Shown here: positions 1 to 9,687 of the stretch, in pieces
How positions within the stretch are numbered: position 1 is the first letter of the stretch
How the letters are laid out: each line of letters begins with the position of its first letter
Assembly (NCBI GenBank): GCA_000227505.4
Contig: AGIF02000001.1
Coordinates: 1,632,035 to 1,696,034 of the forward strand
Source: a gamma proteobacterium HIMB55
GTDB lineage: Bacteria; Pseudomonadota; Gammaproteobacteria; Pseudomonadales; Halieaceae
DNA: 64,000 bases
Reading direction: 5' to 3'
Notes under the pieces: generated by a model
Databases searched by the model: none
Seen by the model: only the letters and a program-made list of their open reading frames with translations
Told to the model about the DNA's origin: nothing
Position numbers and translations under genes: made by a program

Positions 1-52
1 AGCACGAGACAATAATCGAAGTAACCGCTCGTAATCGCAAAGATGCCAACAT
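1..52 (-). CDS. N-terminus of a secreted protein, probably DsbC (partial)
   Basis: An ATG three bases after the xerD stop codon opens a frame that runs off the window edge. The 17 visible residues begin Met-Leu-Ala-Ser-Leu-Arg and then become hydrophobic (AVTSIIVS) with a cysteine at the edge, as in a signal peptide or lipoprotein signal. In many gammaproteobacteria xerD is followed directly by dsbC, the periplasmic disulfide isomerase, which needs such a signal. The dsbC assignment rests on synteny alone; too little coding sequence is visible to confirm it. Confidence 0.45.
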   Translation of the reverse strand, partial: MLASLRLRAVTSIIVSC

Positions 53-55
53 GTT

Positions 56-946
56 CTAACCCCTAGGGTGATGTTTTTCGTGAAGCGCTTGCATTCGACT
101 GCGTGCCACATGGGTGTAAATCTGGGTCGTCGTTAAATCGCTGTGTCCCAGTAACATCTGGACAACGCGCAAATCGGCGCCGTGATTGATAAGGTGCGTG
201 GCAAACGCATGCCGCAAAGTATGTGGAGACAAGCTGTCCTTAATACCCGCGCGCTGAGCGTAGAGTTTAATACGATACCAAAAGGTCTGGCGAGTCATTG
301 CCACACCTCGATTTGATGGAAAAAGCACATCACTTTGTTTGGCTCCCAGTAAATCAAGCCGGGAAGACCGCATGTAATCCGTGAGGCTTTGAATTGCCGC
401 CTCGCCCATGGGCACTAACCGCTCTTTGCCCCCCTTGCCCAGAACACGAACAACCCCCTGGTTAAGACTCAGTTGGGGGATGGTTAGCGAGACCAACTCT
501 GAAACCCGCAAACCGCATGCGTAAAGCACCTCGAGCATGGCGGAATCACGGTGCTCCACTGCAACACCCACATCAGGCGCGTTTAGCAACGCCTCCACTT
601 GTCCTTCGGAAAGCGACTTGGGTAGTGGTCTAGAGGGTTTGGGTCGATCCAAATGCTGGGTCGGATCCAAGGGCACCTCGCCCTCGCGAACGAGGAACTG
701 ATAGAAGCTTCGTAAACTAGATAAAAGACGAGAGATCGACCGGTGAGAGCTACCCGTCGCTAGACGGGCCCCAAGATAGGCCTGCACATCGGACTCATCC
801 GCTTTCAGTGCGGTGCAGTTCTTGTGCTCTATAAGCCAACGATCCAAGCCCTCGACATCGCGTCTATAGGCTTGGCAGGTGTTATCACTGAGACCGCGCT
901 CAAGCCAGAGGGCTGTCGTAAAACGCTCCAGCTCCGACTTGATAAT
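56..946 (-). CDS. xerD: Tyrosine recombinase XerD (non-canonical start)
   Basis: Site-specific recombinase that, with XerC, resolves chromosome dimers at dif. The catalytic set is complete: Arg in GLRVSEL, Lys in GKGGKER, His and Arg in HTLRHAF, His in LLGHSD and the Tyr nucleophile in QIYTH. Counted from an ATT at 944-946 these fall at about R147, K171, H242, R245, H268 and Y277, within two residues of E. coli XerD, in a 296-residue protein. The first ATG/GTG/TTG-type codon in frame is a TTG at 845-847, but 33 conserved-looking residues (ALWLERGLSDNT, QAYRRD) lie upstream of it in frame, so translation must begin earlier. A TAA at 974-976 closes the frame, and only ATT, ATC or CTG codons lie between. 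AGGAAG at 956-961 sits nine bases before the ATT, which favours ATT. Same frame as rplS. Confidence 0.9.
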   Translation of the reverse strand: MIKSELERFTTALWLERGLSDNTCQAYRRDVEGLDRWLIEHKNCTALKADESDVQAYLGARLATGSSHRSISRLLSSLRSFYQFLVREGEVPLDPTQHLDRPKPSRPLPKSLSEGQVEALLNAPDVGVAVEHRDSAMLEVLYACGLRVSELVSLTIPQLSLNQGVVRVLGKGGKERLVPMGEAAIQSLTDYMRSSRLDLLGAKQSDVLFPSNRGVAMTRQTFWYRIKLYAQRAGIKDSLSPHTLRHAFATHLINHGADLRVVQMLLGHSDLTTTQIYTHVARSRMQALHEKHHPRG

Positions 947-958
947 GCAATGCAGCTT

Positions 959-984
959 CCTAAAGCTAAAGCCTTAGCTTTAGG
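959..984 (-). promoter_or_regulatory. Perfect 11-bp hairpin spanning the rplS stop and the xerD Shine-Dalgarno
   Basis: CCTAAAGCTAA and TTAGCTTTAGG form a perfect inverted repeat around a four-base loop. On the minus-strand transcript the 5' arm contains the rplS stop codon (980-982) and a second in-frame TAA (974-976). The 3' arm ends in the AGG that begins the AGGAAG upstream of xerD. No U-tract follows, so it is not a typical intrinsic terminator. Translational coupling (ribosomes finishing rplS open the stem) or mRNA 3'-end protection are possible; both are inference. Confidence 0.6.
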
Positions 985-1333
985 AGAGCTTTTCCTTGAT
1001 GCGTGCTGCCTTACCAGAGAGCTCGCGCAAGTAGTAAAGCTTTGCCTGACGGACATCACCACGGCGCTTAACCGAAATTGAATCAACCAGCGGGCTATAC
1101 GTTTGGAATGTGCGCTCAACACCCACGCCGTGAGAGATCTTGCGAACAGTGAAAGCAGAGTTCACGCCACGATTGCGCTTACCAATGCAAACACCCTCGA
1201 AGGCCTGAAGGCGCTCACGGTTGCCTTCCTTTACCTTTACCTGAACAACAACAGTATCGCCTGGCGCAAAGGCAGGGACTTCTTTCGACATTTGCTCCGC
1301 GTCGAGCTCGGCAATAATTTTGTTGGCACTCAT
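980..1333 (-). CDS. rplS: 50S ribosomal protein L19
   Basis: Structural protein of the large subunit near the subunit interface. The 117-residue length and the segments [34 protein letters not shown] and [17 protein letters not shown] are typical of bacterial L19. It is the last gene of the rpsP-rimM-trmD-rplS operon and lies 89 bases after trmD. The stop is TAA followed one codon later by another in-frame TAA, both inside the downstream hairpin. Confidence 0.98.
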
Positions 1334-1422
1334 GGCTTTCTCCTCAGTCGGCCGCTTTTTTCAAGCAACCCCGTTTCAATCTCGTATCGAGCGTCCCCGC
1401 TCGCGTTCCTGTAACCAGATAA

Positions 1423-2187
1423 TCAGTTTTGGGCGTCTAAATCCCAACGCGAGAGCAGAGCCCTCTGGTCATCTGTCAAATCAGCCCAATCTAATAAATC
1501 TGGCCGACGGTCGAGAGTCCTCTTTAGGGCCTGCGCAGCTCGCCAATCGGCGATGCGAGCATGGTCTCCACTGAGCAGCACCTCAGGCACCGCTCGACCC
1601 TCAAAAATCTCAGGGCGCGTATAGTGAGGACAGTCGAGCAATCCGTCAACAAAAGAGTCCTGTTCTGCGGACATTTCGTCGCCTAAAACACCCGGAATGC
1701 GACGAATTAACGAATCCATTACCAACATGGCGGGCATTTCACCCCCACTGACCACCATATCGCCGACCGACAACTCAAGATCAACTTCGCTCTCGAGGAA
1801 TCGCTCATCGAATCCTTCATACCGACCAGCGACAAAAATGATCGCCTCATGCGCCACTAAACGAGAGATCATAGTCTCATCAACAGCAACACCTTGTGGA
1901 CTCATCGCGATGACTAATGCGTCTTCACCCAGTAAGGCTTTTGCCTTTTTCACCGACTGACTCAGTATTGGCGCTTTCATGACCATTCCGGGCCCACCAC
2001 CGTACGGACGATCGTCAACAGTACCGTGCTTATCGGTTGCGAATTCGCGTGGGTCGATGGCTTCTACCGTGTAGAGCTCATCGCGTGCAGCACGGCCTGT
2101 CACTCCCCACTCGGTTAGTCCGGAAAGCATCTCAGGAAAAATGCTGATAAAAGCCAGTTTACGAAGTGTGACCGATTGATCAGTCAT
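1423..2187 (-). CDS. trmD: tRNA (guanine-37-N1)-methyltransferase TrmD
   Basis: SPOUT-family enzyme that uses S-adenosylmethionine to make m1G37 in tRNAs reading CNN codons, preventing +1 frameshifts. The ATG at 2185-2187 (MTDQSVTLRKLAFISIFPEM) gives 254 residues, the usual family length; a longer frame reaches 2229 but would lie inside rimM. Family hallmarks visible are the FPEM start, DDRPYGGGPGM, the trefoil-knot cofactor region VAGRYEGFDERF and SVGDMVVSGGEMPAM, and the C-terminal helical domain with CPHYTRPEIFEG. The start overlaps the rimM stop by 8 bases, so translation is probably coupled. Confidence 0.97.
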   Translation of the reverse strand: MTDQSVTLRKLAFISIFPEMLSGLTEWGVTGRAARDELYTVEAIDPREFATDKHGTVDDRPYGGGPGMVMKAPILSQSVKKAKALLGEDALVIAMSPQGVAVDETMISRLVAHEAIIFVAGRYEGFDERFLESEVDLELSVGDMVVSGGEMPAMLVMDSLIRRIPGVLGDEMSAEQDSFVDGLLDCPHYTRPEIFEGRAVPEVLLSGDHARIADWRAAQALKRTLDRRPDLLDWADLTDDQRALLSRWDLDAQN

Positions 2188-2740
2188 CGGGATGCCAATT
2201 GACGTCAATAATCGCATTAGCGAGATCAACGCTTACGACAACGTCGTCTTCGATGTAGGGAATCAGACGCTCGCGGTCGTCGATACTGGTCTCAGAGGCG
2301 CGCACCACGAGCACATCGTTCGCACCTGTTTCTAAAAGGTAATTGACCGTACCCAAGTCGAGAGCGTTGCCTTCCTCATCCTGCGCCCTGACAGTGCAGC
2401 CCACTAGGTCATCCCAGTAGAACTCTCCATCATCAAGTGCGGGTAAGGCCGACTTAGGCACCATGATGTCGTGACCGCGCAGTAGCTCCGCCGCGTTCCG
2501 ATCCTCTACCCCCTCTAACGATGCTATGTAACCCTTTCCCTGTGCACGAACGTTGAGCACACGGATAGGACGACGCGACTGCTGCCGTGAGTCAATCAAA
2601 AATTGGGGATTGAGAGAGGTTAGCGAGGCTGGGTTCTCAAGATTAACTTTGAGTTTCACCCAGCCCTTGATGCCGTATACGCCTACAATTTTGGCGGCGG
2701 CGATGTCAGGGTTTGTGGCGTCAGAGTGCGCCACAGACAA
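2180..2740 (-). CDS. rimM: Ribosome maturation factor RimM
   Basis: 30S assembly factor that binds S19 during maturation of the head. The N-terminal RimM beta-barrel is recognisable from KIVGVYGIKGWVKLKV, and the C-terminal PRC-barrel-like domain from DGEFYWDDLVGCTV and LIPYIEDDVVVSVDL, with the typical late ID-W ending. At 186 residues it is normal length. It starts 4 bases after the rpsP stop and overlaps trmD. A short extra N-terminal segment (MSVAHSDATNPD) precedes the conserved core, so a start a few codons later is possible. Confidence 0.97.
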   Translation of the reverse strand: MSVAHSDATNPDIAAAKIVGVYGIKGWVKLKVNLENPASLTSLNPQFLIDSRQQSRRPIRVLNVRAQGKGYIASLEGVEDRNAAELLRGHDIMVPKSALPALDDGEFYWDDLVGCTVRAQDEEGNALDLGTVNYLLETGANDVLVVRASETSIDDRERLIPYIEDDVVVSVDLANAIIDVNWHPDD

Positions 2741-2744
2741 CCGA

Positions 2745-3005
2745 TTAAGCTGCTGCGGCTGCTTGGCTCGCCGCTTCTTTGACTAGGCTAGCAACGCGAG
2801 GTGACAACTGTGCACCCTTTGCTACCCATGCATCAATACGATCGGTATCAATACGCAGACGCTCTTCCTGACCACGTGCGATGGGGTTGAAGAAACCTAC
2901 GCGCTCAATGAAACGACCGTCACGTGAGTTACGGCTATCGGTAACTGTCACGTGATAAAAAGGACGCTTCTTTGCGCCGCCGCGTGAAAGACGAATTGTG
3001 ACCAT
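2745..3005 (-). CDS. rpsP: 30S ribosomal protein S16
   Basis: Small-subunit protein needed for 30S assembly. [38 protein letters not shown] and the [14 protein letters not shown] segment are diagnostic. It has 86 residues with an alanine-rich C-terminus ([10 protein letters not shown]). It is the first gene of the rpsP-rimM-trmD-rplS operon. The 106 bases between its start and ffh hold a 7-bp hairpin (3027-3045) on the minus strand and presumably a promoter, though no clear -35/-10 pair could be fixed. Confidence 0.98.
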
Positions 3006-3111
3006 TGCTTTGTCCTAAACGTTAACCCTCAGGATTTTCCCGAGGCAAAATTTGAGGTCGCGAAGAGTACAGGAAGTCTCCCTGTGTTTAAAGTCCCACC
3101 GACAAGAATAA

Positions 3112-4509
3112 TTACCGACGCGGGAAGCCCGGTGGCATGCCACCGCCGGGAGGCATACCGCCACCGCCCCCCATCATGCCGCCCATGCCACGCATCATTC
3201 GCTGCATGCCACCGCCTTTCATCTTTTTCATCATCTTCTGCATCTGCTTATGCTGCTTCAGAAGTCGATTTAAATCGGGGACAGCTGTACCCGAACCTGC
3301 GGTAATGCGACGCTTGCGCGATGGGTTAATGAGATCAGGGTTTTTGCGTTCCTTGGGCGTCATGGAATTGATCATGGCTTCCATGCGGTCGAACTGTTTT
3401 GTATCCAGCTGGGCTTGAGCCGCCTGCGCCATACCACCCATGCCAGGCATCTTATCGAGCATGGCACCGATGCCACCCATGTTTTTCATCTGTTGCAGCT
3501 GATCGCGGAAATCTTCGAGATCGAAGCGCCCGCCTTTCTCTACCTTCTTGGCAAGCTTCTGCGCCTTCTTTTTGTCGACCTTGCGCTCAGCGTCTTCGAT
3601 AAGCGATAACAGATCGCCCATGCCAAGAATGCGCGACGCGAGTCGGTCAGGGAAGAACGGCTCGAGGGCCTCGGTTTTCTCACCAACACCCATGAACTTA
3701 ATCGGCTTACCAGTGACCTGACGGACAGAGAGCGCAGCACCACCGCGGGTATCCGCGTCTACCTTGGTCAGAATGACGCCGGTGAGCGCAAGCGCGCGAT
3801 TGAAGGCTGTTGCGGTGTGAACCGCGTCTTGACCGGTCATTGCGTCGATGACAAAGAGCGTTTCAACGGGGTTGATGGCTTTGTGGAGATCCGAGATCTC
3901 TTCCATCATTTCGTTGTCAATTGCGAGGCGTCCCGCGGTATCCACCAATAGAACGTCGCTAAAAGCAGTCTTCGCATTTTTCAGAGCGCGATTAACGATA
4001 TCGACAGGCCGCTCATCCACCGAGGAAGGCTCGAACCGCGCGCCAACCTCTTCCGAGAGCGTCTCGAGTTGCTTGATAGCGGCAGGTCGATATACATCAG
4101 CACTGACAACCGTAACTTTCTTCTTCTCACGCTCCATGAGATAGCGCGCGAGTTTTGCAACAGACGTGGTTTTACCCGCACCCTGAAGACCGGCAACCAT
4201 GACAACCGCGGGCGGCTGCGCAGCCAAATTTAGCTCTTCATTAGCCTCACCCATGACGCTCTGGAGTTCGGCTTGAACGATTTTCAGGAAGACCTGACCG
4301 GGTGTGAGGCTCGACGTAACCTCTGTACCAACCGCGCGCTCTTTGACGCGATCAGTAAATTCTTTGACGACTGATAGCGCGACATCGGCCTCCAACAGCG
4401 CCATACGTACTTCGCGCAACGTATCCTTGATGTTGTCTTCAGTGAGGCGTGACTTGCCCGCCATTGCTCTCAAACTGGCGGATAAACGTTCGCTTAAGCT
4501 TTCAAACAT
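3112..4509 (-). CDS. ffh: Signal recognition particle protein Ffh
   Basis: GTPase that, with 4.5S RNA, binds hydrophobic signal sequences on the ribosome and delivers nascent membrane proteins to FtsY. The order is an N domain (MFESLSERLSASLRAMAGKSRLTEDNIKDTL), a G domain with GLQGAGKTTSVAKLA, VSADVYRPAAIKQLE, LVDTAGRL and a TKVDADTRGGAALS G4/G5 segment, then a Met-rich M domain. The C-terminus is very Met/Gly rich (repeated MGGM, MPPG), as expected for the signal-binding and tail region. 465 residues is normal. The gene opens toward ypjD on the opposite strand, as in E. coli. Confidence 0.98.
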   Translation of the reverse strand: MFESLSERLSASLRAMAGKSRLTEDNIKDTLREVRMALLEADVALSVVKEFTDRVKERAVGTEVTSSLTPGQVFLKIVQAELQSVMGEANEELNLAAQPPAVVMVAGLQGAGKTTSVAKLARYLMEREKKKVTVVSADVYRPAAIKQLETLSEEVGARFEPSSVDERPVDIVNRALKNAKTAFSDVLLVDTAGRLAIDNEMMEEISDLHKAINPVETLFVIDAMTGQDAVHTATAFNRALALTGVILTKVDADTRGGAALSVRQVTGKPIKFMGVGEKTEALEPFFPDRLASRILGMGDLLSLIEDAERKVDKKKAQKLAKKVEKGGRFDLEDFRDQLQQMKNMGGIGAMLDKMPGMGGMAQAAQAQLDTKQFDRMEAMINSMTPKERKNPDLINPSRKRRITAGSGTAVPDLNRLLKQHKQMQKMMKKMKGGGMQRMMRGMGGMMGGGGGMPPGGGMPPGFPRR

Positions 4510-4556
4510 GTTCTTTCCTGTGTCGATTTACAGTGCCGCAGGCGCTGGAAGCGCGT

Positions 4557-4562
4557 AGTATA
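4557..4562 (-). promoter_or_regulatory. Candidate -10 element for ffh
   Basis: TATACT on the minus strand, 48 bases before the ffh start, within the 95-base divergent spacer to ypjD. The 17-base-upstream hexamer TGATTA is a weak -35. The same GTATAC core recurs upstream of the acidic repeat gene and upstream of the Trm112-like gene, consistent with a housekeeping sigma factor. Confidence 0.4.
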
Positions 4563-4604
4563 CGCTGACGATAGAAAAATAATCAGGGGAGTTCTGCGAT
4601 AACC

Positions 4605-5420
4605 ATGGCAGGATTTGCGACCAATGAAGTGCTTGCAGTGGCAGCGACCTTAGCGGCTGCGCTTTATCTCTACACAGCGGTGCAACAGCTTTTGAGACTT
4701 GAGCGACGCGAGGAAAATCTCCCTCGCGCCATATTGATTCCTGCCGTTGTGGCGCTTCTACTCCATGGCTTCGTGATCTTCGACAGCTCCGCGACGGTTG
4801 GGGGTAATTTTGGCTTCTACCGCGTGGCCTCGCTGACATTCTGGCTGATGGGCGTCCTCAGCCTACTCATTCTCGCCGTCCGACCGCTGCAAACCCTGTT
4901 GATGGCTATTTTCCCCCTGGCAGCGATAGCGATATTGGTAGCTACGCTGACGCCAGAGACCGCGAGACCGATGACCGATACCCCGCGTGGCTTACTGCTC
5001 CATATCTCAACATCGATTATCGGCTACGCGCTACTAGGATTGGCAACGCTACAGGGCTTATTGGTACTGCAGCAAAGCCGATTACTCAGGCAACACAAGA
5101 CTCGTGGCCTGATTCGCCTCCTGCCTCCGCTCGATCGTACCGAGCAGGTCATGCACGAACTCATTGCCATGGGCACACTGGTCATGGCGGTGTCTATCGT
5201 CGCGGGCTTCTACTACGTCGACGATTTATTTGCACAACACCTCATCCATAAAACGGTACTCACCATAATTGCGTGGGTTCTGTTCGCAGTCGTCTCCGTG
5301 CGGCACATCCGCTACGGCTGGCGAGTCAATACGGCGGTGATGCTTTGCTGCAGCGGGTTTGCACTTCTGACGATAGGGTTCTATGGCTCGAAACTTGTCC
5401 TCGAGCTGGTTCTCACCTAA
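4605..5420 (+). CDS. ypjD: Inner-membrane CcsA/YpjD-family protein (CorE)
   Basis: Polytopic membrane protein of 271 residues with about eight hydrophobic segments, including VLAVAATLAAALYLYTAV, ISTSIIGYALLGLATLQG and the C-terminal ALLTIGFYGSKLVLELVL. It belongs to the cytochrome c assembly (CcsA-like) fold. In E. coli the homologue sits between ffh and yfjD/corB in the same order and has been linked to Mg2+/Co2+ handling (CorE). A role in haem handling is possible from the fold but not shown. The best purine-rich stretch (AGGGGAG) ends 13 bases before the ATG, longer than ideal, so the exact start is slightly uncertain. Confidence 0.88.
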   Translation: MAGFATNEVLAVAATLAAALYLYTAVQQLLRLERREENLPRAILIPAVVALLLHGFVIFDSSATVGGNFGFYRVASLTFWLMGVLSLLILAVRPLQTLLMAIFPLAAIAILVATLTPETARPMTDTPRGLLLHISTSIIGYALLGLATLQGLLVLQQSRLLRQHKTRGLIRLLPPLDRTEQVMHELIAMGTLVMAVSIVAGFYYVDDLFAQHLIHKTVLTIIAWVLFAVVSVRHIRYGWRVNTAVMLCCSGFALLTIGFYGSKLVLELVLT

Positions 5421-5493
5421 TTGAAATCTGGGGTTGCGAGCGCGCGCGTTTTTCTCAACAATTACGGTTCATTTTGACGTTTGCGCATAAAGT

Positions 5494-6771
5494 TTGAACG
5501 ACGCCCCGCTGGGACTCCTCTTTGCCATTCTGGCAGCACTCATACTCTTATCCGGATTTTTTTCGAGCTCAGAAACTGGAATGATGGCGCTCAACCGTTA
5601 CCGGTTGAAACACCTCCAGCAGCAGGGGCATAAAGGCGCGCTGCGCGCAGGAAAGCTGCTCGCCCGGCCGGATCGTCTCATCGGGCTGATTCTGATCGGA
5701 AACAACCTCGTCAACATTCTCGCGTCCTCCATAGCAACAGTTGTTGCTATTCAACTTTACGGAGATGCGGGCATTGCCATCGCCACCATTTTATTGACGA
5801 TCGTGATTTTGATCTTTGCCGAAATCACACCCAAAACGATTGCGGCTATTCACCCCGAAAAAGTTGCGTTCCCGGCGAGCATCATTCTGCTGCCACTGAT
5901 GAAATTGGCGATGCCCCTGGTTTGGTCGATCAATGCCATCACCAATGGACTCCTATCGCTTCTTGGCTTCAAGGCAGACGCGACGAGCGAGGACGCACTT
6001 ACTCAAGAAGAACTCCGAACGATTGTGAGCGAATCGGGCGGCCTGATTCCTCGACGTCACCGGAATATGTTGGTCAATATTCTCGACCTTGAGCAGGTGT
6101 CAGTTAATGACATCATGGTTCCCAGGAATGAGATCTACGGTATCGATCTCGAAGATGACGACGCAACCATTCTCAGTCGACTGAAATCCAGCACGCATAC
6201 ACTGGTGCCCGTCTTCCGGGGCGATATCAACAAAATCGAGGGCATTCTCCACTTACGGAATCTTGGCAAATGCCTAGAGGGTGAAGGTCTGAACCGAACA
6301 TCGCTTCTGCGCGAACTCCAAGAGCCCTACTTCACACCCGAGAATACCGCGCTTCATATCCAACTTCGCCACTTTCAGCAGCGCAAGCTACGCTTGGGCA
6401 TGATCGTCGATGAATACGGCGACATCATGGGCCTCGTTGCGCTTGAGGATATTCTCGAGGAAATCGTGGGTAACTTTACTTCCAATCTCGTTGAGGATCA
6501 GGAAGAAATAGCAACTATGGCCGACGGTGGCGCTTCATGCACAGGTAGCATTCCTATCAGAGACATCAATCGGCAATTTGGCTGGTCACTGCCAACTGAT
6601 GGGCCCAAAACAATCAGTGGCCTCGCCCTTGAGGCACTAGAGGCGTTCCCAGTGGGCCAAGCGTCTGTGCGTATTGGCGACTATCAACTCGATATCGAGT
6701 GCATCGAAGGGAATGCGATTACGCAGGTTCGTGTCACGCCACTGGCGACGCTAGAAGCAAAGGAAGCGTGA
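5494..6771 (+). CDS. corB: CNNM/CorB-type transporter with CBS pair
   Basis: 425-residue member of the HlyC/CorC (CNNM) family, associated with Mg2+ and Co2+ resistance or efflux. An N-terminal DUF21 membrane domain (LSGFFSSSETGMMALNRYRLKHL, then hydrophobic segments to about residue 150) is followed by a CBS pair (from VSVNDIMVPRNEIYGIDLEDD to LRLGMIVDEYGDIMGLVALEDILEEIVGNF) and a C-terminal CorC_HlyC domain. It starts with TTG at 5494-5496. It lies downstream of ypjD, as in E. coli (ypjD-yfjD), 73 bases away. It converges on the DUF1289 gene. Confidence 0.93.
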   Translation: MNDAPLGLLFAILAALILLSGFFSSSETGMMALNRYRLKHLQQQGHKGALRAGKLLARPDRLIGLILIGNNLVNILASSIATVVAIQLYGDAGIAIATILLTIVILIFAEITPKTIAAIHPEKVAFPASIILLPLMKLAMPLVWSINAITNGLLSLLGFKADATSEDALTQEELRTIVSESGGLIPRRHRNMLVNILDLEQVSVNDIMVPRNEIYGIDLEDDDATILSRLKSSTHTLVPVFRGDINKIEGILHLRNLGKCLEGEGLNRTSLLRELQEPYFTPENTALHIQLRHFQQRKLRLGMIVDEYGDIMGLVALEDILEEIVGNFTSNLVEDQEEIATMADGGASCTGSIPIRDINRQFGWSLPTDGPKTISGLALEALEAFPVGQASVRIGDYQLDIECIEGNAITQVRVTPLATLEAKEA

Positions 6772-9261: not shown

Positions 9262-9687
9262 TCAGTCTTCGCTTGACTCTTCATCCGCTGGCGCTTCGTC
9301 AGCTGCAGGTGCTTCCTCTTCAGCAGCAGGCTCTTCTGCAGGTGCTTCCTCTTCAGCAGCAGGTTCTTCTGCAGGTGCTTCCTCTTCCGCCGCAGGTTCT
9401 TCCTCTTCCGTAGCAGGCTCTTCTGCAGGCGCCTCCTCTTCGACAGCTTCTTCTGCTGGCGCCTCTTCAGCCGCTGCCTCTTCGGCAACCACCTCTTCTT
9501 CAGTCTCTACAACCTCGGGTTCAGGTGTAGGTGGCGCTGCAACAGTGACCAGCTCCTCCGCAATCAGAATGTTTACTTTCTCTTCGCCGTTTACTGGCTT
9601 GCCAGCGGCGTTTTGAACCGCGTAACGGTTATCACCACGCAAGAAAATTTTGTAGTCAGCGGTCTTACGGACAAGCTTCATCGCCAT
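9262..9687 (-). CDS. Conserved small protein with a long acidic Ala/Glu/Pro repeat tail
   Basis: 141 residues. The first ~47 form a compact basic-to-mixed domain (KLVRKTADYKIFLRGDNRYA, then NGEEKVNILIAEELV) resembling uncharacterised small gammaproteobacterial proteins. The rest is low-complexity acidic sequence, with 11-residue units of the AEEEAPAEEPA type and an all-acidic end (ADEESSED). No signal peptide or membrane segment is visible, so it should be soluble and strongly negatively charged. GGGAG lies 7 bases before the ATG at 9685-9687; a second ATG two codons later is an alternative. It has its own promoter-like element and terminator, so it is probably monocistronic. Function unknown. 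Confidence 0.8.
   Translation of the reverse strand: MAMKLVRKTADYKIFLRGDNRYAVQNAAGKPVNGEEKVNILIAEELVTVAAPPTPEPEVVETEEEVVAEEAAAEEAPAEEAVEEEAPAEEPATEEEEPAAEEEAPAEEPAAEEEAPAEEPAAEEEAPAADEAPADEESSED
9305..9480 (-). repeat. 33-bp in-frame tandem repeat within the acidic tail
   Basis: Near-identical 33-base units begin at 9305, 9338 and 9371 (each starting GCAGGTGCTTCCTCTTC on the plus strand), followed by more diverged copies to about 9480. A 33-base period keeps the frame and gives an 11-residue Glu/Ala/Pro unit. Such repeats change copy number by slippage without breaking the gene. Confidence 0.85.

Follow-up and report, generated by a model that had tools for sequence, protein, structure and literature searches.

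In Escherichia coli, infC and pcnB start at AUU, and the choice of start in infC is widely conserved and feeds back through IF3. The gene described here, xerD of the gamma proteobacterium HIMB55 (genome G000), resembles both in being an essential-type housekeeping gene that has a near-cognate start and whose product perhaps needs to be scarce; unlike in the case of infC, only two close relatives are without a canonical start. In infC of HIMB55 and of its relative G002 an ATC start is apparent, with GGAG at a spacing of 7 (loci L128 and L127, about 1450-1520), and just 5' of this Shine-Dalgarno sequence stands an in-frame GTG or TTG that would lead a gene caller astray.

Other bacterial genes, too, have documented AUU and AUA starts, and, according to excerpts of PMC13009471, cvfC1 (AUU) and ccpN (AUA) of S. 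aureus combine, like xerD, a non-canonical start with Shine-Dalgarno support, their yield being reduced. In these two genes the Shine-Dalgarno sequence is extended and strong and the start was shown by ribosome profiling and reporters (same excerpts), whereas the putative one of xerD comprises four bases. In RNA-unfolding coupled gene pairs, as in rplS-xerD, a hairpin covers the stop of the first gene and the Shine-Dalgarno sequence of the second (excerpts of PMC12548453); what distinguishes rplS-xerD is the combination of a predicted hairpin with a near-cognate start. In genes 38 and 25 of phage T4, a helix between the Shine-Dalgarno sequence and the start brings both close (excerpts of PMC3014915). 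The same is possible in xerD, where, unlike in the T4 genes, the would-be upstream Shine-Dalgarno sequence is conserved rplS coding sequence and a second one lies within the helix. The arrangement at xerD is uncommon but of a known type, and it would keep XerD scarce if the proposal made below is true.

The window, i.e. the whole stretch of 64,000 nucleotides analysed, is part of a single-contig genome of 2,736,988 bases, and we call the genus Luminiphilus because named relatives at the locus come from records of Halieaceae and Luminiphilus. The minus-strand gene order is rpsP, rimM, trmD, rplS, xerD, and past the window edge comes dsbC; xerD alone was named by family search, the other five names being presumptive. 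Compared with a second Luminiphilus species (G047; GenBank contig CAJXZI010000202.1, locus L047; 92% protein identity), rplS has 41 synonymous codons and no amino acid change. The xerD protein, read from ATT, scores 376.4 bits against TIGR02225 (curated cut-off 329.6) and aligns to E. coli XerD (1a0p) from residue 5 onward (E 4e-97). It contains R147, K171, H242, R245, H268 and Y277, which we take to be the catalytic R, K, H, R, H, Y set, at positions no more than two off those of E. coli XerD. A second Xer-type protein of the genome (289 bits, in a 340-codon open frame at G000:C1:2045022) may be the XerC partner. No relative was found among viral contigs. Elsewhere in the window, a 141-residue protein (9262-9687, minus strand) bears a long Ala/Glu/Pro repeat tail, for which tandem repeats at 9303-9487 code.

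Table 1. Features of the rplS-xerD junction, in positions of the window
Feature	Position	Strand	Basis or remark
rplS, presumed ribosomal protein L19, 117 aa	980..1333	minus	stop TAA 982-980; 117-codon orthologues in relatives
AAGGA, putative upstream Shine-Dalgarno sequence if the helix is bridged (speculative)	993..997	minus	in rplS codons AAG GAA
Extended helix of 16 bp, one C bulged; AGGA (Shine-Dalgarno) and, within CTG, C and T are paired	954..990	minus	predicted fold
Perfect 11-bp hairpin, loop GGCT; holds the rplS stop	959..984	minus	present in G000 and G047
Second in-frame TAA, closing the xerD frame upstream	974..976	minus	
Shine-Dalgarno-like AGGA	958..961	minus	16S tail read as CACCUCCUUA
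CTG, rival candidate start codon	953..955	minus	homologous to ATG/GTG/TTG starts in 13 relatives
ATT (ATC in G047), favoured candidate start codon	944..946	minus	
TTG, first canonical in-frame start (263 aa; would drop 33 conserved residues)	845..847	minus	
xerD coding sequence read from ATT, 296 aa	56..946	minus	TIGR02225 and 1a0p matches

After the second TAA the minus strand reads GGC TTT AGC TTT AGG AAG CTG CAT TGC ATT ATC AAG, and no in-frame ATG, GTG or TTG occurs from this TAA down to the TTG at 847-845. The 33 codons from ATT to that TTG nonetheless evolve as coding sequence: they differ from G047 by 10 synonymous changes and 1 amino acid change and from G002 by 10 and 2, the remainder of xerD having 91 synonymous against 23 amino-acid-changed codons among 263 in the comparison with G047. 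With a coding N-terminus and no canonical start, a near-cognate codon must serve, either CTG or ATT/ATC, each of them a weak start. As far as sequence comparison can tell, xerD is thus a rare-start gene without a canonical start in two sister species, and its start appears to be narrowed to these two candidate codons. Much of this agrees with the initial annotation, which had reported XerD residues conserved upstream of the TTG (as the mostly synonymous substitutions and the 1a0p alignment bear out), a region free of ATG, GTG and TTG (as our reading confirms), an ATT with AGGAAG (961-956) ending nine bases 5' of it and yielding the 296-residue protein with its near-matching catalytic positions, and an rplS end of the form TAA-AGC-TAA, in the same frame as xerD and within the perfect hairpin. 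It had also allowed for an assembly error. Sequencing or assembly error is excluded by G047, which has the same gap and its own substitutions nearby.

In G047, which shares both TAA codons and the hairpin, the codons from CTG onward are CTG AAT CGC ATC ATC AAG. The intergenic bases of the two species are identical at 24 of 24 positions, as against 311 of 354 in rplS and 752 of 900 in xerD; from the rate at fourfold sites (106 of 188 identical in rplS and in xerD after codon 33, a count that excludes the N-terminal part of xerD with its 15 sites, 4 of them different) such identity would be improbable, at 1e-6, if the sites were neutral. This should not be overread, as the 48-nt identical run spanning the hairpin is exceeded by one of 65 nt within xerD of the same pair. 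The start of 13 close relatives lies three codons 5' of the ATT position and is ATG in eight, GTG in three and TTG in the sister pair G001 and G002; the window and G047 have CTG as the homologous codon, a single transition from TTG. A TrmD+RplS tree of 37 tips (L015, L019 and L031 were dropped, their sequence being missing) unites the two TTG and the two CTG species in one clade with a support of 0.967; the CTG pair alone has a support of 0.49, yet its nucleotide identity is above that to the TTG pair. The simplest history suggested by these sequences would lead from a canonical start to TTG and thence by one transition to CTG. The check suggested by the initial annotation, whether relatives keep ATT/ATC and the hairpin, comes out positive for G047, with ATC and the same hairpin, and negative both for the 13 relatives that start further upstream and for the hairpin in the sister pair. 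The rare start that it reported is real, and present in G047 too, while its choice of ATT had overlooked the CTG that aligns with the starts of those relatives.

Within genes, runs of 33 codons without ATG, GTG or TTG are not rare (12.6% of coding windows, 10,954 of 87,258); the rare feature is that a start present in the orthologue is absent. In a census of 400 kb of the window's genome (2.74 Mb) against 400 kb of G002, covering 266 gene pairs, xerD is the sole clear case. The first census filter, with 100 matches, mostly caught alignments extending upstream of real starts and was replaced by an orthologue-start filter, which returned 29 rows over both directions; the other 28 were judged from the table by length, identity and substitution pattern, and one of them also aligns TTG with CTG, over 5 codons. 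Among XerD loci (L004-L125, n=122), 90 were left after removal of 30 duplicates, one 35%-identical paralogue and one cut locus. Five of the 90 have no ATG, GTG or TTG in the range between 12 codons 5' and 10 codons 3' of the ATT position. Two of the five have an in-frame ATG just past that range, which leaves the window, G047 and L110 from Gilvimarinus sp. 2_MG-2023. The last (1979-2885) reads TAAGGA, 7 nt, ATC and is like xerD of the window in being without a canonical start, but differs in its strong Shine-Dalgarno sequence at a spacing of 4, in a terminator-like hairpin that separates it from rplS, and in being found in one of eight genomes of its genus, the other seven having ATG 7-12 codons before the first codon of the query. 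Its rare start is apparently independent of the Luminiphilus one; as it comes from one genome only, a sequence error might also account for it. The open-access literature searched gave no report on the xerD start codon or its translational coupling, nor on Luminiphilus xerD.

The hairpin, CCTAAAGCTAA-GGCT-TTAGCTTTAGG (984..959), is predicted to be stable and to extend to the 16-bp helix of Table 1, at -20.9 kcal/mol, with z scores of -3.1 in a 56-nt and -4.1 in a 43-nt stretch and none of 200 shuffles as good in either. The rplS TAA falls in the 5' arm of this helix and AGGA in the 3' arm. Allowing up to 3 mismatches, the hairpin sequence occurs at this single place in G000 and in G047, which dismisses a repeat element, and was not found in G001 or G002. 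In the sister pair, inspection by eye suggests a stem of 8 bp that has one compensatory change, but the homologous region (L005) folds no better than shuffles (z 0.59), and we therefore do not claim conservation of the hairpin there. A function as rplS terminator was rejected, the minus strand of 1-1500 being without a terminator-like site in a consensus scan; on the plus strand the scan gave two such sites, one of them the hairpin read in reverse. The same scan found no promoter-like site in 1-1500, and no Rfam family matched in 1-6000. The frame that rplS shares with xerD is not kept in every relative and may be due to chance.

As to the codon that serves, we give about an even chance to xerD in the window and in G047 being translated from a near-cognate codon that is most likely the ATT, or ATC in G047. 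At this codon AGGA has an aligned spacing of 8, and the canonical starts of the 19 scored relatives have 5-10. A crude start-score model, which uses generic parameters and ignores mRNA structure, totals -5.6 for ATT and -3.1 for CTG; this gap of 2.5 kcal is weak, as the model rates the certain TTG of the sister region L005 (-6.3) nearly equal to the ATT there (-5.9) and gives the certain ATG of L013 just -4.4. Codons -2 and -1, between CTG and ATT, both changed amino acid between the window and G047, compared with 1 of the 33 codons that follow (Fisher p 0.005) and 24 of 296 in all (p 0.007), a test that comprises two codons only, of which codon -2 varies among relatives anyway. By the usual ribosome footprints, the space behind a terminating ribosome would be just enough for a 30S subunit on ATT but too small for one on CTG. 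Against ATT stands the use of the CTG position by 13 of 13 relatives with a canonical start.

That homology is the main strength of the foremost rival, a start at CTG, which is possible though at less than an even chance. The ancestral site would have been retained there, weakened by the TTG-to-CTG transition, to yield 299 residues from weak and perhaps coupled initiation. It is favoured by the retention of CTG in both species opposite the TTG, ATG and GTG of their relatives, by the single clade of TTG and CTG species, and by the Arg at codon -1 of 13 of 13 relatives and of G047, in place of which the window has Cys. It is opposed by the position of the nearest AGGA just two bases away (aligned spacing -1), the other candidate being a TAAGG at spacing 12 within the hairpin, by the predicted pairing of its C and T in the extended helix, and by the amino acid changes in both codons that follow it. 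In excerpts of PMC11497404 (citing Hecht 2017), moreover, CUG initiates in E. coli at 0.86% of AUG, as against 29.8% for UUG, and makes up 0.024% of bacterial starts, and excerpts of PMC5622118 give a UUG-to-CUG switch in 1 of 2,468 reconstructed UUG starts. A relaxed initiation machinery was rejected as an explanation of the rare start, as the anticodon arm of the initiator tRNA, including its three G-C pairs, matched exactly in 4 of 4 genomes.

Returning to the favoured ATT/ATC, we propose that the stem-loop holding the rplS stop would also pair the AGGA that serves this start, so that initiation at xerD would occur chiefly when ribosomes at the end of rplS keep the 5' arm open, with a low XerD level linked to rplS translation as the outcome. 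Such coupling through ribosomal unfolding of the hairpin, and a low dosage of XerD, are plausible, and an RNA-unfolding model of coupling is described in excerpts of PMC12548453; counting against the proposal, the same excerpts find that structure directly after a stop codon lowers coupling. The gap from the rplS stop is 24 nt to CTG and 33 nt to ATT. In excerpts of PMC10666635, reinitiation drops steeply with distance and almost no coupling is left at about 20 nt, a dependence that would speak against simple reinitiation across 24-33 nt. A bolder form, which we regard as unlikely, is a conditional switch in which AUU/AUC (or CUG) would act as a start only when a ribosome on the rplS stop opens the stem burying the Shine-Dalgarno sequence. 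The dose of XerD would then follow ribosomal-protein synthesis, and the erosion of the start from ATG/GTG through TTG to CTG or ATT would mark a lowering of xerD expression in one branch of the genus, another branch of which would have discarded XerCD altogether. As it stands, the genus offers a natural series of starts in one gene (ATG/GTG, TTG, CTG or ATT/ATC), through which one can directly test what start erosion does to a low-dose recombinase.

In a quite improbable alternative, the ribosome-binding site would be split, the AAGGA within rplS acting as Shine-Dalgarno sequence and the helix, now helping initiation, bringing CTG or ATT near. Bridging 12 bp of the helix would place AAGGA 9 nt from CTG and bridging 16 bp would place it 9 nt from ATT, and precedents in T4 shorten the distance from 22 to 5 nt in gene 38 and from 27 to 11 nt in gene 25 (excerpts of PMC3014915). 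Ribosomes translating rplS would, however, pass over AAGGA, whose presence is no evidence since it is fixed by conserved rplS codons, and the fit discriminates poorly because it suits CTG and ATT alike. That xerD is in early decay, barely translated and heading for loss as in a sister clade, is very improbable: a clade of the same genus is without xerD at the locus (8 of 8 loci), so that the gene can be lost in the genus, but purifying selection acts on the remaining protein, the reading frame is open and encodes the catalytic residues. Least probable of all is a start at the TTG at 847, which as the first canonical in-frame start is the standard output of an ORF caller and would give a XerD of 263 residues that is 33 residues short at its N-terminus, since the 33 upstream codons evolve as coding sequence with almost exclusively synonymous changes, align to E. 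coli XerD and are included in 13 of 13 relatives that start canonically where the window has CTG. Gene callers usually overlook near-cognate starts, and here they would cut these 33 residues.

The case of xerD also draws attention to the Luminiphilus clade without it. There the gene after rplS is dsbC at 8 of 8 loci, none of which gave a XerD match (L211-L218; genomes G037, G030, G029, G025, G024, G010, G038 and G040), and these genomes form one clade in the TrmD+RplS tree (0.95). Across the genus search, 29 of 57 genomes have a XerD match below E 1e-60. In a XerD profile search, 10 such genomes without xerD, drafts that are 83-97% complete, gave no XerC- or XerD-like match above 110 bits; six of the ten have a 325-residue tyrosine recombinase (about 101-107 bits), and four have no match. 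This recombinase (L206:1369-2346, L207:1459-2436, L208:1462-2439) is nearly identical across species, has neighbours that partly agree in L206 and L207 and are different in L208, and occurs in two copies in G010; it may be mobile and not a substitute Xer protein.
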